Shown one piece after another: positions 10,616 through 16,078 of a DNA stretch of 64,000 bases. Source of the stretch: an uncultured Alphaproteobacteria bacterium. GTDB lineage: Bacteria > Pseudomonadota > Alphaproteobacteria > Micropepsales > Micropepsaceae. The DNA is taken from positions 1 to 64,000 of the forward strand of contig CAILUV010000074.1 in NCBI GenBank assembly GCA_903837555.1, written 5' to 3'. The position numbers and the translations under genes were made by a program. The notes under the pieces were generated by a model. The model ran no database searches. It had not been told where the DNA came from and was given only the letters and a program-made list of their open reading frames with translations. Positions within the stretch are counted from its first letter, which is position 1. Each line of letters begins with the position of its first letter.

Positions 10616-11599
10616 ATGACCGAAACGCACCCGTCCTCCATCATCAAGCCGCTCGACCGCGCTTTCGCGCTGGAAGCGGTGCGCGTCACCGAAGCCGCCG
10701 CCATTGCCGCCTATGCCCAGATCGGGCGCGGCAACGAGCATGAAGCCGATCACGCCGCCGTCGAGGCGATGCGCATCGCCTTCAACTCCTTGCCGATCGA
10801 CGGCACGGTGGTGATCGGCGAGGGCGAACGCGACGACGCCCCCATGCTGTTCATCGGCGAAAAGGTCGGGCAGGGCGGCTTGTCGGTCGACATCGCGCTG
10901 GACCCGCTCGAAGGCACTACGCTGACCGCCAAGGCGATGGCGAATGCGCTGGCGGTGATGGCGATGGCCGAACCCGGCACCATGCTGAACGCGCCCGACA
11001 CCTACATGGACAAGATCGCCATCGGTCCCGGCTTCAAGGACGGTCTGGTCGATCTGGATGCCGAACCCGGCGACAACATCAACGCCATTGCCAAGGCCAA
11101 GGGCCTCAAGCCGCAGGAAGTCACCGCGCTGGTGATGGATCGCCCGCGCCACGAGGCGCTGATCGCGAAAATCCGCAAGGCGGGCGCGAAAGTGAAGCTG
11201 ATCACCGACGGCGACGTGGCCGGCGTGATCGAAGCCACCGACGAAGCCACCGGCGTTGACATCTACATGGGCACCGGCGGCGCGCCCGAAGGCGTGCTGG
11301 CGGCTGCCGCGCTGCGTTGCATTGGCGGCCAGATGCAGGGCCGCTTGCTGTTCCGCAATGATGACGAACGCGCCCGCGCCGCCAAGTGGGGCGTCACCGA
11401 CCTTAACCGCAAATATGCGCTGAACGACCTGGTGTCCGGCGACGTGGTGTTTTCCGCCACCGGTGTGACCGATGGTTCGATGCTGCGCGGCGTGCACCGG
11501 GACGGCGATTTCATCACCACCGAAAGCGTGGTGATGCGGTCGGCCACCGGCACGGTGCGCTGGATCCGGGCGCGGCACCGCCGAGTGCAGGGTAGTTGA
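10616..11599 (+). CDS. glpX: Class II fructose-1,6-bisphosphatase
   Basis: GlpX hydrolyses fructose-1,6-bisphosphate in gluconeogenesis. The 327-residue product has the metal-binding motifs VVIGEGERDDAPML and VDIALDPLEGTT, and the GTGGAPEGVLAAAAL block of GlpX proteins. The ATG at 10616 (MTETHPSSIIKPLDRAF) is chosen because upstream residues would only read the hom 3' end. Its stop overlaps the TTG start of recJ by 4 nt, so these two are also coupled. Confidence 0.95.
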   Translation: MTETHPSSIIKPLDRAFALEAVRVTEAAAIAAYAQIGRGNEHEADHAAVEAMRIAFNSLPIDGTVVIGEGERDDAPMLFIGEKVGQGGLSVDIALDPLEGTTLTAKAMANALAVMAMAEPGTMLNAPDTYMDKIAIGPGFKDGLVDLDAEPGDNINAIAKAKGLKPQEVTALVMDRPRHEALIAKIRKAGAKVKLITDGDVAGVIEATDEATGVDIYMGTGGAPEGVLAAAALRCIGGQMQGRLLFRNDDERARAAKWGVTDLNRKYALNDLVSGDVVFSATGVTDGSMLRGVHRDGDFITTESVVMRSATGTVRWIRARHRRVQGS

Positions 11600-13362
11600 G
11601 CGAAACAGCCGCATTCGGGGTTGCGCGCTCCTTTTCGGGCCGCCGCTGGCTGCTGAAAGCCGTCGATCAGGATATCGAGCGCGAACTGCTGCGTGAAATA
11701 TCGCCGGTCCTGTCGCGGCTACTTGCGCTGCGCGGCGTCACCGCGCCCGAAGCCGCAGATTACCTGACGCCCAAACTCAAGAACCTGTTGCCCGATCCCA
11801 ATATCCTGAAGGACATGGACAAGGCCGTGGCGCGTGTTGCCGCCGCGCTGGAGTCCGGTGAGGCCATCGCGGTGTTCGGCGACTATGACGTGGATGGTTC
11901 CACCTCGGCGGCGCTGATGTCGGATTTTCTGACGGCGCTGGGTGCAGCTCCGCGCATCTACATTCCCGACCGCATGACCGAAGGTTATGGCCCGTCGCCT
12001 GCGGCGATGCAGGTACTGGCGGCGGAAGGCGCCAGGGTGGTGATCACGGTGGATTGCGGCGCCGCCGCGATTGCCGCGCTGGAAGAAGCCGGAAAGCTCG
12101 GCATGGATGTGGTGGTGCTGGATCATCACCGGGTCGAAGCCGCGCCGCCCGTGCTGGCACACGTCAATCCCAACCAGCCGGACGACACCTCAAAGCTGGG
12201 GCATCTGTGCGCGGCGGGCGTATGCTTTCTTTTTCTGGTAGCGCTCAACCGTCATCTGCGCGACCAGAAGTTCTACGAAGAGCGCGGCGTCGCCGAACCC
12301 GACCTGCGGCTGTTCCTCGACCTGGTGGGGCTTGCCACGATCTGCGATGTGGTGCCGCTGAAAGACGTCAACCGCGCCTTTGTGCGTTTTGGGTTGGGAC
12401 AGATTTCCACGCTCTCGCGTCCCGGACTGGCCGCGCTGGCGGGCATTGCTGGGGCCAAGGGTCCGTTTACGCCGTATCATCTGGGGTTCGTGTTCGGGCC
12501 GCGCATCAATGCCGGGGGGCGGGTCGGGCGCTCGTCGCTGGGCGTTGATCTTCTGACGTCGCGCGAACCGGAAAAAGCGGCAGAGCTCGCCGCGCAGATG
12601 GACCTGCACAACAAGGAACGCCAGGCGATCGAAAAGATCATTCTCGAAGAAGCCATTGCGCAGGGCATGACGCAGGCCAACGCGCCCTTCGTTTTGGTGT
12701 CGGGGGATGGCTGGCATCCCGGCGTGGTCGGGATCGTGGCGGGGCGGCTGAAAGAGCGCTTCGGCAAGCCCGCTTTCGTCGCCGGTTTCGAAGGCGGCAT
12801 GGGGCGAGGCTCAGCCCGCTCCATCCCCGGCATCGATCTGGGCGGCATCATCCGCGCCGCCGCCGAGGCAAAAGTGATCGAGTATGGCGGCGGCCATGCC
12901 ATGGCGGCGGGCTTCTCGCTGATGGCGGGCCAGATCGAGGGGTTCCGCAAATTCGTCGAGGAGCACTTCAGCGGCACCGGTCCGGCGCTTTCGGCGGCGA
13001 ACGACCTGTACCTGGATGCCGTTTCGTCCCCTGCCGGGGCCAATATCGCGCTGGTGCAGGAGATCGCGGGCGCGGGCCCGTTCGGGGCGGGAAATCCCGA
13101 ACCCCTGCTGGTTCTCCCCGATGTCCGGGTCGCCTTTGCCGACATCGTGGGCAAGGCCCATGTGAAACTGCGGCTGGGGGGCGGGGACGGCACCATGCTG
13201 GACGCCATTGCCTTCAGGGCCGTGGGAACGCCACTGGGAGACGGCCTTTTGGCCGCCCGGGGTGGACGGGTCCATGTGGCCGGACGGCTGCGCCAGGACG
13301 ACTGGAACGGCCGTATCCGGGTCCAGCTCGAAATCGAGGATGCCTCGGCTGCAACCGCCTGA
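11596..13362 (+). CDS. recJ: Single-stranded-DNA-specific exonuclease RecJ
   Basis: RecJ is a 5'-3' exonuclease of the RecFOR recombination and mismatch repair pathways. The 588-residue product carries the DHH-family motifs AVFGDYDVDGSTSAAL and VVVLDHHRVE and the DHHA1 motif YGGGHAMAAGFSL, then an OB-like C-terminal domain with VRVAFADIVGKAHVKLRL. The start is a TTG overlapping the glpX stop (TTGA). It is the last gene of the four-gene coupled group; tRNA-Glu follows 50 bp later. Confidence 0.95.
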   Translation: MSETAAFGVARSFSGRRWLLKAVDQDIERELLREISPVLSRLLALRGVTAPEAADYLTPKLKNLLPDPNILKDMDKAVARVAAALESGEAIAVFGDYDVDGSTSAALMSDFLTALGAAPRIYIPDRMTEGYGPSPAAMQVLAAEGARVVITVDCGAAAIAALEEAGKLGMDVVVLDHHRVEAAPPVLAHVNPNQPDDTSKLGHLCAAGVCFLFLVALNRHLRDQKFYEERGVAEPDLRLFLDLVGLATICDVVPLKDVNRAFVRFGLGQISTLSRPGLAALAGIAGAKGPFTPYHLGFVFGPRINAGGRVGRSSLGVDLLTSREPEKAAELAAQMDLHNKERQAIEKIILEEAIAQGMTQANAPFVLVSGDGWHPGVVGIVAGRLKERFGKPAFVAGFEGGMGRGSARSIPGIDLGGIIRAAAEAKVIEYGGGHAMAAGFSLMAGQIEGFRKFVEEHFSGTGPALSAANDLYLDAVSSPAGANIALVQEIAGAGPFGAGNPEPLLVLPDVRVAFADIVGKAHVKLRLGGGDGTMLDAIAFRAVGTPLGDGLLAARGGRVHVAGRLRQDDWNGRIRVQLEIEDASAATA

Positions 13363-13369
13363 TTTTGGC

Positions 13370-13398
13370 TTGCAAAAGCCGTTTTGCGCCGGTAAACC
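13370..13398 (+). promoter_or_regulatory. Candidate promoter of tRNA-Glu
   Basis: TTGCAA (13370-13375) and TAAACC (13393-13398) are 17 bp apart, with the tRNA beginning 15 nt after the -10. A GGCTT-GCAA-AAGCC mini-hairpin with a short T stretch overlaps the -35 and might weakly end recJ transcripts. Confidence 0.45.
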
Positions 13399-13412
13399 CC
13401 CGGCCTCCGGTA

Positions 13413-13487
13413 GCGCCCTTCGTCTATCGGTTAGGACTCAGGATTTTCATTCCTGCAAGGGGGGTTCGACTCCCCCAGGGCGCACCA
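13413..13487 (+). tRNA. tRNA-Glu (anticodon TTC)
   Basis: A 75-nt cloverleaf with encoded CCA. The acceptor arms GCGCCCT and AGGGCGC pair fully, the anticodon arm CAGGA/TCCTG carries loop TTTTCAT with TTC at 34-36, and the T arm has GGTTCGACTCC. The open frame through this region is a translation artefact of the tRNA. Confidence 0.97.
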
Positions 13488-13514
13488 TTCATTCCAATCG
13501 CGCCGCGATTTGGA

Positions 13515-14402
13515 ATGAAGGACAAGGCGGCCCTGTATGACCGGGGAACGGCGCTGGCGGCGCAGCATCGCATCGCCGACTGGTTCGCGTCCTTCCACGC
13601 CTTTGCCCAAAGCGTGATGCCACCGGCAGCAAGCCAGACGCCGCTCAAGATGCGCCATGACGCCGAGCAGCAGGACTGGCTGCGACAGCAGGGCGTCACG
13701 CCCGGTCCCCATTGGCATATCGAGGGCGGTGAAAGGCTTAGCGGGCCAGCGATCAATCCGCGCAATGCGGACGAGGCCGCGCGGCAATGGCGCGAAAACC
13801 GGCCGCAGGTCGTCGTGGTGGACGAGCTTCTGACGCCCCTGGCGCTGGCCGCCTTGCGCCGTTTCTGCCTGGGCTCGACCCTGTGGCGCACCGGTTATGG
13901 CAGCGGCTATCTGGGCACCTTTCCCGAGCATGGCTTTTCGGTCCCGCTGCTGGCCCAGATCGCCGAGGAATTCCGTGACATGTATCGCGGCATCTGCGGC
14001 GACCTGCCGCTGAAGTATGCCTGGGCCTTTAAATATGACAGCAGCATGGAGGAGGGTGTTCACATCCATGCCGACGATGCGGCGGTGAACGTCAATTTCT
14101 GGATCACGCCGGACGAGGCCAATCTCGATTCCAGCAGCGGCGGTCTTCTGGTGTGGGATGTTCCGGCCCCGGCTGACTGGGATTTCACCCGCTTCAACCG
14201 CGACCAGCCGGCGATCCGGGATTTTCTGGCGCGCAACCACGCCAAGGCGATGACCGTGCCCTATCGTGGCAACCGGGCGGTGATTTTCGATTCCAATCTG
14301 TTGCACAAGACCGACCGGATTTCCTTCCGGGACGGCTATGAAAACCGCCGCATCAACGTCACTTTGCTCTATGGCGAACGCCTCGCCGGCGCGCTAGTTT
14401 GA
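13515..14402 (+). CDS. 2-oxoglutarate/Fe(II)-dependent oxygenase family protein
   Basis: The 295-residue product has a C-terminal prolyl-hydroxylase-like jelly-roll. The iron ligands are visible as His185-x-Asp187 in VHIHADDAAVNVNFW and His264 in SNLLHKTD. Arginines at 278-279 (ENRRINVTLLYG) can hold 2-oxoglutarate. The N-terminal 100 residues are not recognised. Substrate is unknown. The ATG at 13515 is preferred because any earlier in-frame start lies before or inside tRNA-Glu. A second, unrelated Fe(II) oxygenase starts 4 nt downstream, so the two are probably co-translated and may act together. Confidence 0.82.
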   Translation: MKDKAALYDRGTALAAQHRIADWFASFHAFAQSVMPPAASQTPLKMRHDAEQQDWLRQQGVTPGPHWHIEGGERLSGPAINPRNADEAARQWRENRPQVVVVDELLTPLALAALRRFCLGSTLWRTGYGSGYLGTFPEHGFSVPLLAQIAEEFRDMYRGICGDLPLKYAWAFKYDSSMEEGVHIHADDAAVNVNFWITPDEANLDSSSGGLLVWDVPAPADWDFTRFNRDQPAIRDFLARNHAKAMTVPYRGNRAVIFDSNLLHKTDRISFRDGYENRRINVTLLYGERLAGALV

Positions 14403-14406
14403 TCCC

Positions 14407-15588
14407 ATGCTGGACTTCGATCAGATCATTGCGCCCCTGAACCGCGACAAGCTTGTGCGCGACCATTGGGGAAAATCCTTCGCCCGCATGCAGGGCACGC
14501 CTGGGCGCTTTGCCGACCTGTTCACATGGAACGAGCTGAACACGGTGCTGGAAACCCACCGGCTGATGCCGCCGCGCTTCAAGCTGTTCAAGGACGGCCA
14601 GCTGATCGATCCGGCGCGTTATATCACCCCGCCGCACATGGGCACGCCGCGCATTGATTCCGGCGGGTTGGCGGTGTGCCTGGCCGAAGGCGCCTCGCTG
14701 ATTCTCAACGATGTGCAGGAAGTCAGCCCCAAGCTGCGCCAGCTTATGCAGGTGTTCCAGGCGGCGCTGAAGACCGACACCTATGCCAATCTCTATGCCG
14801 CATTTCACAGCCAGAAGGCGTTTGACCTGCATTGGGATCCGCAGGATTCCATCATTCTGCAATTGTCCGGCAAGAAACGCTGGAAGGTCTACAAGCCGAC
14901 CCGCCTGCATCCGCTGGAAGACGATCTCGAGAAACCCGCCCAGCCCACCGGCGATGCGGTGTGGGAAGGCGTGCTGAAGGAAGGCGACGCCATCTACATC
15001 CCGCGCGGCTGGTGGCATGTGGTGCATCCGCTGAACGAACCCAGCCTCCATCTCACCGTGTCGCTGACCCCGCCCAAGGGGTTAGATCTGCTGGGCTGGG
15101 CCGTGTCCAAGCTGCGCAGCGAGGTACAGGTGCGCGCCGGGATTCCCGCGCTGCTGGACGGTGCCGCCCGCGCGGCACACATGAAATCATTGCGCGATCT
15201 GGTCACCACCACGCTGAGCGACGCGGCGATGGATGATTTCCTGGGGGAGTGGGACGCCAACATCGGCCACAGCCCGCATATTCGTTTGCCCGGATCGTCT
15301 TATGCCCAGTTCGCCGACATCGCCGAAGACAGCGTCGTGCGGCTGGCCACGCTCAACCGCCTGCCACTCGCGCCGTTTGGCGGGCAGTTTGAATTCAAGG
15401 CCGTCGGGAAATTGTGGACAGTGCCGGCGGTCTTGGTCCCGGCGCTGGCGCTGCTGCACAATGCGCGTTCGCATCCGGTTTCAGAATTGTCCGCCGCGCT
15501 GCCGGACGATTCCGCGCGCGCAGATCTGAAAAAGAGTCTGGCGGTACTGGCGCGCTCTGGCGTGGTGCTGGTGGAGAAAAACGCCTGA
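14407..15588 (+). CDS. JmjC/cupin_4-type Fe(II)/2-oxoglutarate oxygenase
   Basis: The 393-residue product resembles the cupin_4/JmjC family that includes ribosomal protein hydroxylases (YcfD/RoxA type). Iron ligands are His142-x-Asp144 in FDLHWDPQDSIILQLSGKK and most likely His204 in IPRGWWHVVHP. The region after about 250 is a helical dimerisation/winged-helix-like tail. YcfD/RoxA hydroxylates L16, but this protein diverges enough that the target is open. It follows the other oxygenase by 4 nt, which hints at a shared pathway. Confidence 0.8.
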   Translation: MLDFDQIIAPLNRDKLVRDHWGKSFARMQGTPGRFADLFTWNELNTVLETHRLMPPRFKLFKDGQLIDPARYITPPHMGTPRIDSGGLAVCLAEGASLILNDVQEVSPKLRQLMQVFQAALKTDTYANLYAAFHSQKAFDLHWDPQDSIILQLSGKKRWKVYKPTRLHPLEDDLEKPAQPTGDAVWEGVLKEGDAIYIPRGWWHVVHPLNEPSLHLTVSLTPPKGLDLLGWAVSKLRSEVQVRAGIPALLDGAARAAHMKSLRDLVTTTLSDAAMDDFLGEWDANIGHSPHIRLPGSSYAQFADIAEDSVVRLATLNRLPLAPFGGQFEFKAVGKLWTVPAVLVPALALLHNARSHPVSELSAALPDDSARADLKKSLAVLARSGVVLVEKNA

Positions 15589-15720
15589 CTGCAGGTTCCC
15601 GAAGTTCCGTCACGCGCCTTTTTACCGTCCAGCCCGCGCCACAATAAGGCCACCGGCGGAGCCGTTCATCCTCTCACCTCAACACGGCCCAACGCGAGCG
15701 GGCACAAAGGGAGAGACTCT

Positions 15721-15754
15721 ACATGACGGCAACCAAGACATGACGGCAACCAAG
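15721..15754 (+). repeat. Perfect 17-bp tandem duplication across the lipoprotein start codon
   Basis: ACATGACGGCAACCAAG occurs twice head-to-tail (15721-15737 and 15738-15754). The first copy supplies an ATG at 15723 that opens a six-codon frame (MTATKT) ending in a TGA that overlaps the second ATG. The AGGGAGAG Shine-Dalgarno is spaced for the first ATG, not the second. Confidence 0.9.
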
Positions 15755-16078
15755 GCAATGATCGCGGTTCTGGCGCTGGGCGTGACGCTCGGTGGATGCG
15801 CCACCCGCGAGTCGGTTGAGAATGCGCAGGCGTCGGCGAATGCCGCGGATCGCCGCGCGATGAACGCGCAGGGCCGCGCAGATGATGCTTACGCGACCGG
15901 CCGCGAAGCGCTGGGCGTGGGCCATGACGCCAAGAGCGCCGCGCTGATCGCCGAACAGAAGGCCGACCAGGCCAATGCGGATATCTCCGCGGTCAAGCAG
16001 CGCCTGACCGCGATGGAATGGAAAACGCCAAAGAAGGCGCGCAAGGCCCGCACTTCTCAGGCCCGCACCAACAGCTAG
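15740..16078 (+). CDS. Small alanine-rich lipoprotein
   Basis: The 112-residue product has a lipoprotein signal with lipobox LGVTLGGC (Cys20) and then a repetitive Ala/Asp/Arg helix (ENAQASANAADRRAMNAQGRA and similar) that looks like an Lpp-style alanine zipper or coiled coil. The C-terminus is basic. A structural envelope role is inferred from this layout; I do not recognise a named family. Translation probably depends on a six-codon upstream frame created by a 17-bp duplication. An intrinsic terminator follows. Confidence 0.75.
   Translation: MTATKAMIAVLALGVTLGGCATRESVENAQASANAADRRAMNAQGRADDAYATGREALGVGHDAKSAALIAEQKADQANADISAVKQRLTAMEWKTPKKARKARTSQARTNS

Follow-up and report, generated by a model that had tools for sequence, protein, structure and literature searches.

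The closest described counterparts of the locus presented here are the ribosomal oxygenases, a group of defined domain architecture in which the characterised enzymes target His or Arg residues of ribosomal proteins: YcfD acts on Arg81 of uL16, NO66 (RIOX1) on His216 of uL2 and MINA (MINA53, RIOX2) on His39 of uL15 (PMC6006756). A second set of counterparts comprises prolyl hydroxylases, namely the HIF prolyl hydroxylase PHD2, the P4H of Pseudomonas putida, and Tpa1/OGFOD1, which are uS12 prolyl hydroxylases and eukaryotic two-domain proteins. A third is human AspH, the Asp/Asn beta-hydroxylase, in which a TPR array precedes the 2-oxoglutarate (2OG) oxygenase domain (PMC6817910) and whose metal site departs from the usual triad of Asp/Glu and two His (PMC13168262).

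The window, a stretch of 64,000 nucleotides of alphaproteobacterial DNA, contains two ORFs (295 and 393 aa) for different Fe(II)/2OG oxygenases that lie 4 nt apart downstream of tRNA-Glu (Table 1). Inspection of the sequences confirms this layout, first described in a sequence-only reading, together with the metal ligands named there: H185-x-D187 and H264 in ORF 1, and H142-x-D144 and H204 in ORF 2, all invariant in alignments of relatives. The gene order RecJ, tRNA-Glu, TPR-oxygenase(s), JmjC, small lipoprotein, alcohol dehydrogenase and pyrophosphatase is common to the genomes G036, G012 and G015, and within this conserved neighbourhood neither a peptide precursor nor a biosynthetic gene was observed beside the pair, in agreement with that reading. 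The downstream lipoprotein was considered as a conserved third partner and rejected, given that it is syntenic in G016 too, where the JmjC gene is absent. A search of 13300-15800 for a promoter-like site found none, which is weak evidence. We propose, with a probability of about 0.6, that the window holds an eroding, genus-specific two-oxygenase operon in which ORF 1 is a remnant and the JmjC protein is active without needing ORF 1.

Table 1. Positions of the oxygenase pair and its surroundings in the window.
Feature	Position	Strand	Basis and remarks
RecJ	11596..13362	+	Pfam and synteny; left border of conserved neighbourhood, context only
tRNA-Glu (UUC)	13413..13487	+	ARAGORN; upstream landmark common to G036, G012 and G015
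Trailer hairpin of tRNA-Glu, without T-tract	13485..13521	+	Fold -21.6 kcal/mol; ORF 1 ATG (13515) in 3' arm
Deletion junction	13527..13533		blastn against syntenic loci, and sequences; ~7 nt overlap
5'-truncated TPR-oxygenase (ORF 1)	13515..14402	+	Complete PHD/P4H-like 2OG oxygenase domain (predicted); TPR array gone
ORF 1 ligand codon starts	14067, 14073, 14304
JmjC protein, ribosomal-oxygenase type (ORF 2)	14407..15588	+	Pfam JmjC_2; NO66 top PDB match in both sequence and fold
ORF 2 ligand codon starts	14830, 14836, 15016
Small alanine-zipper-like lipoprotein	15740..16078	+	Weak Pfam match and synteny; right border of neighbourhood, context only

Family membership of the two oxygenases

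ORF 2 matches the Pfam family JmjC_2 (3e-24; 85.4 bits versus a cut-off of 22), and its H142, D144 and H204 are invariant in eight aligned sequences. Profile ranking places NO66 first (6e-24), followed by MINA (2e-17) and YcfD (~2e-8), and fold ranking returns NO66 (Z 23.1), MINA (22.8) and YcfD (18.8) with essentially the whole chain aligned. Against NO66, residues 4-393 of the model align, and with them the middle and C-terminal regions by which ribosomal oxygenases are defined, such that one chain holds a JmjC domain, a helical middle part (dimerisation) and a C-terminal winged-helix-like part. Model quality is medium (pLDDT 70.9), and weak stretches at 1-21 and 285-302 limit detail. ORF 2 shares the HxD...H triad and the full-length three-part architecture with NO66, MINA and YcfD (Z 18.5-23), and the Lys that follows the triad in NO66 is conserved at the aligned position. 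In contrast, it is only ~20% identical to these proteins and belongs to a separate bacterial subgroup. Pfam, profile and fold agree with the earlier description of ORF 2 as a JmjC/cupin_4 enzyme akin to ribosomal-protein hydroxylases, and ORF 2 is probably an active protein hydroxylase of ribosomal-oxygenase type. Its orthologues are intact in all five species that carry the operon, with pairwise dN/dS of 0.13-0.23 in the four compared, which by this measure are under purifying selection.

Around the Arg targeted by YcfD, uL16 of the same genome reads EVRMGSGKG. We set this residue aside as a marker of a YcfD role for ORF 2: such an Arg is common in bacteria and hence non-discriminating, and NO66 and MINA outrank YcfD. 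Plasmid relatives of the JmjC protein are mostly from Streptomyces (34-36%), in contexts that were unhelpful. A tandem JmjC pair was observed in G437:C38 (L200, 477-1670), where the metal-binding Asp144 is replaced by His in one copy, possibly an inactive enzyme.

ORF 1 was placed by fold search only. No match at cut-off was obtained against Pfam or NCBIfam (best Pfam model DUF6445, E 0.04), no P4H model of Pfam reaches cut-off on ORF 1, and relatives match only 2OG-FeII_Oxy_3 at E 0.02-0.04; neither ORF 1 by itself nor a profile of its family retrieved a relative from the PDB by sequence. The oxygenase domain is complete, with neither stop nor frameshift, and its predicted fold (pLDDT 92.5) aligns by VIA-align with PHD2 (4jzr; Z 17.0, rmsd 2.9, 176 residues) and with the P. 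putida P4H (4j25; Z 16.9). H185, D187, H264 and the conserved R279 are invariant in 25 aligned sequences. The predicted domain thus has the double-stranded beta-helix with HxD...H and C-terminal Arg of a PHD/P4H-like 2OG oxygenase, in line with the prolyl-hydroxylase-like enzyme first proposed. ORF 1 is only 11-18% identical to PHD2 and the P. putida P4H, and a prolyl substrate is putative. Foldseek neighbours also include SnoN/SnoK, BesD/HalA-type enzymes and Tpa1/OGFOD1 (3mgu, 3kt4), the last at ~15% identity.

The 5' end of ORF 1

Relatives of ORF 1 are mostly fusions of 435-650 aa that join a TPR array to this oxygenase domain, an order shared with AspH. Within the genus, nearly all ORF 1 matches are C-terminal in a longer protein, mostly from residue ~170-280, and Pfam scans of seven full-length relatives place TPR arrays N-terminal to the oxygenase domain in every one. 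The window ORF 1 lacks the N-terminal array that this fusion family carries and, in alignment, starts inside the last TPR region of its relatives; it differs from AspH in its HxD triad and in the lack of TPRs. Comparison with syntenic loci by blastn reveals trailer homology up to 13532-13533 and gene homology from 13527. Because homology breaks at this junction, ATG AAG GAC AAG, which supplies the start and first four residues of ORF 1, is trailer sequence. On this comparison, a deletion removed ~173 N-terminal residues from the window ORF 1 and brought codon ~174 up against the tRNA-Glu trailer, with a size estimated from coordinates at ~0.6 kb relative to a G012-like arrangement and ~2.4 kb relative to a G015-like one. 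The lost TPR part was sought elsewhere in the genome and is absent, the best match (42%) being an intact paralogue on contig C21. Tandem long TPR proteins, each ~40% identical to the lost part, occur at G000:C94:4658-9767.

The trailer hairpin lies at the same position in G036 (-30.0 kcal/mol) and G012 (-34.2 kcal/mol), where its inner bases differ yet stay paired, and it lacks a T-tract. An ATG within this hairpin and the absent promoter-like site are weak arguments on ORF 1 expression, and the start site itself proves little because intact neighbour genes also have poor SD sequences. Other rearrangements were observed beside tRNA-Glu. In G015:C1 (L079), where tRNA-Glu occupies 12890-12964 on the minus strand, 44 nt of its 3' end recur imperfectly (91%) ~230 nt further downstream, enclosing an AT-rich stretch, and G036 has a 4.7-kb insert at the corresponding place. 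Taken with the window deletion, these suggest an insertion/deletion hotspot.

Pairwise dN/dS for ORF 1 versus its closest copies is 0.21-0.25. By parsimony count, omega is 0.38 (0.25-0.60) on the ORF 1 branch versus 0.28 (0.21-0.37) for the other branches pooled, such that relaxed selection on ORF 1 is not demonstrated, and the data fit recent loss and continued constraint equally. A cyanophage carries a short oxygenase of the ORF 1 family standing alone, which indicates that members of the family can do without TPRs.

Occurrence and fate of the pair

A close JmjC copy was defined as one scoring >400 bits, where the next score was 144. Among 69 genomes of the genus, the TPR-oxygenase is present in 24 and a close JmjC copy in 13; 12 of these 13 JmjC genomes carry the TPR-oxygenase versus 12 of the 56 others (Fisher p 3e-6, without correction for descent). 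Seven of 18 close JmjC copies adjoin a TPR-oxygenase, five in a codirectional operon with a gap of 4-5 nt in five species and two head to head (G018, G435). For the other 11, some of them on short contigs, the visible stretch shows no such partner. Most of the ~60 TPR-oxygenase copies are also unpaired, being mostly solitary genes in varied contexts. The head-to-head JmjC genes lie near the operon group in the JmjC tree while their partners come from a different oxygenase group, which argues that the pairing arose twice or changed partner. The pairing is therefore found in other species, all within one genus, rather than in this genome alone, and no unrelated conserved partner was found elsewhere, the other contexts being diverse.

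Beyond the genus, a class sample of 385 genomes holds the TPR-oxygenase in 36, a JmjC_2 relative in 58 and both in 10 (5.4 expected; p 0.046), with no adjacency by coordinates outside the genus. Of 20 class loci fetched, 16 have a called oxygenase gene, none with a JmjC neighbour; L140, L141, L154 and L155, where the gene was uncalled, were left out of this count. The TPR-oxygenase family occurs in 27 of 276 sampled alphaproteobacterial genera. TPR-oxygenase genes lie within ~5 kb of TonB-dependent receptor genes at L058, L063, L064, L089, L091 and L095; these receptors were dropped as associates, the genus being receptor-rich and the orthologous cases non-independent, and a literature search on the TonB/halogenase/SapC gene set gave no match. 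Four consecutive TPR-like genes, one of them a TPR-oxygenase, were seen at L150 (G154:C7, 4802-11887) in a non-relative of the class.

At the operon locus, the tree separates two paralogue groups, A (G036, G448 and the distal copy of G015) and B (the window, G012 and the proximal copy of G015). The TPR-oxygenase is intact in two of the five operon species (G036 and G012, one copy each) and broken in two (G015 and the window); in G448 it is cut by the contig end and was dropped as a case of truncation. Both operon copies of G015 contain an in-frame TAG, for which recoding was rejected since the codons stand at different places, one instead of a conserved Trp and the other instead of a conserved Gln. 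G016 has only TPR-oxygenase fragments at the corresponding locus, and its JmjC gene is absent. Three G015 copies in all have in-frame stops (L079, L091), and family fragments are present in G015, G016, G018, G001 and G448. Judged by these sequences, the TPR-oxygenase is a gene family with rapid turnover. With breakage or fragments in G015, the window and G016, and an intact JmjC gene in each of the five operon species, the TPR-oxygenase is the expendable member at this locus.

These patterns bear on whether the pair is a working module, in which both enzymes would hydroxylate one protein or complex, each at its own site, with the first enzyme still active here although TPR-less. The kept intergenic gap, the second, head-to-head adjacency, the genome co-occurrence and the intact ORF 1 domain are each consistent with such a module. 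We nevertheless consider it unlikely given the truncated partner in the window and the TAG-interrupted one in G015, the majority of JmjC copies unpaired, the use of different paralogue groups as partner by species, and adjacency not found outside the genus. Of the two-oxygenase system first proposed, the distinct 2OG oxygenases, the ribosomal-oxygenase-type JmjC and the recurrence in other species stand, while its dependability is not supported. Also unlikely is a genus module of TPR-guided P4H-like oxygenase and JmjC enzyme, acting for example at two sites on one ribosome-associated protein, of which the window lineage would be reduced to the catalytic domain.

ORF 1 could instead be an oxygenase that functions alone on a separate substrate, its adjacency to the JmjC gene being merely an inherited position. 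This we hold to be decidedly unlikely: the branch omega below 1, the confident fold and the mostly solitary TPR-oxygenases in varied contexts are in its favor, but a similar truncation in another lineage, which would argue for retention, was not found, and the ORF 1 start region is replaced by tRNA trailer. Sequential tailoring of a small molecule or secreted peptide by the pair is very improbable; although small-molecule enzymes (SnoN/SnoK and the BesD/HalA group) are among the ORF 1 fold neighbours, the conserved neighbourhood lacks a biosynthetic or precursor gene, the JmjC protein is nearest to protein hydroxylases by sequence and fold, and the TPR arrays of relatives would point to protein binding. 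An assembly error behind the ORF 1 truncation is scarcely credible, for although the genome is in 101 contigs and probably metagenome-derived, the two flanks of the junction share one 120-kb contig and follow the syntenic order expected there, which makes a chimeric assembly unlikely.

Proposed history of the operon

Erosion of a genus-specific operon, our preferred reading, would have begun from tRNA-Glu followed by one or two TPR-fused PHD/P4H-like oxygenases and then the ribosomal-oxygenase-type JmjC. The deletion seen in the sequence comparison affected the last TPR-oxygenase, leaving a complete oxygenase domain stripped of its TPR array and former start region, with an ATG inside the hairpin. 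ORF 1 would then be a remnant with little expression or, at most, a domain deprived of the part that recruits its substrate. The JmjC protein would act without ORF 1 and, like its family, would hydroxylate a side chain of a protein, plausibly a ribosomal one, with Fe(II), O2 and 2OG. The interpretation of ORF 1 as a remnant is weakened because the frame is free of stops and frameshifts, the metal ligands and Arg are kept and the fold is predicted with confidence. ORF 1 may or may not still work, and a joint function of the pair is possible, though required by no evidence obtained.

An apparently neat pair of stand-alone oxygenases would thus be a partly dismantled operon, which corrects a tempting reading and draws attention to a TPR-oxygenase family without a name and to a bacterial JmjC subgroup resembling NO66. 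The two enzymes belong to known families, and the pair is conserved in a small clade, where it is being eroded.
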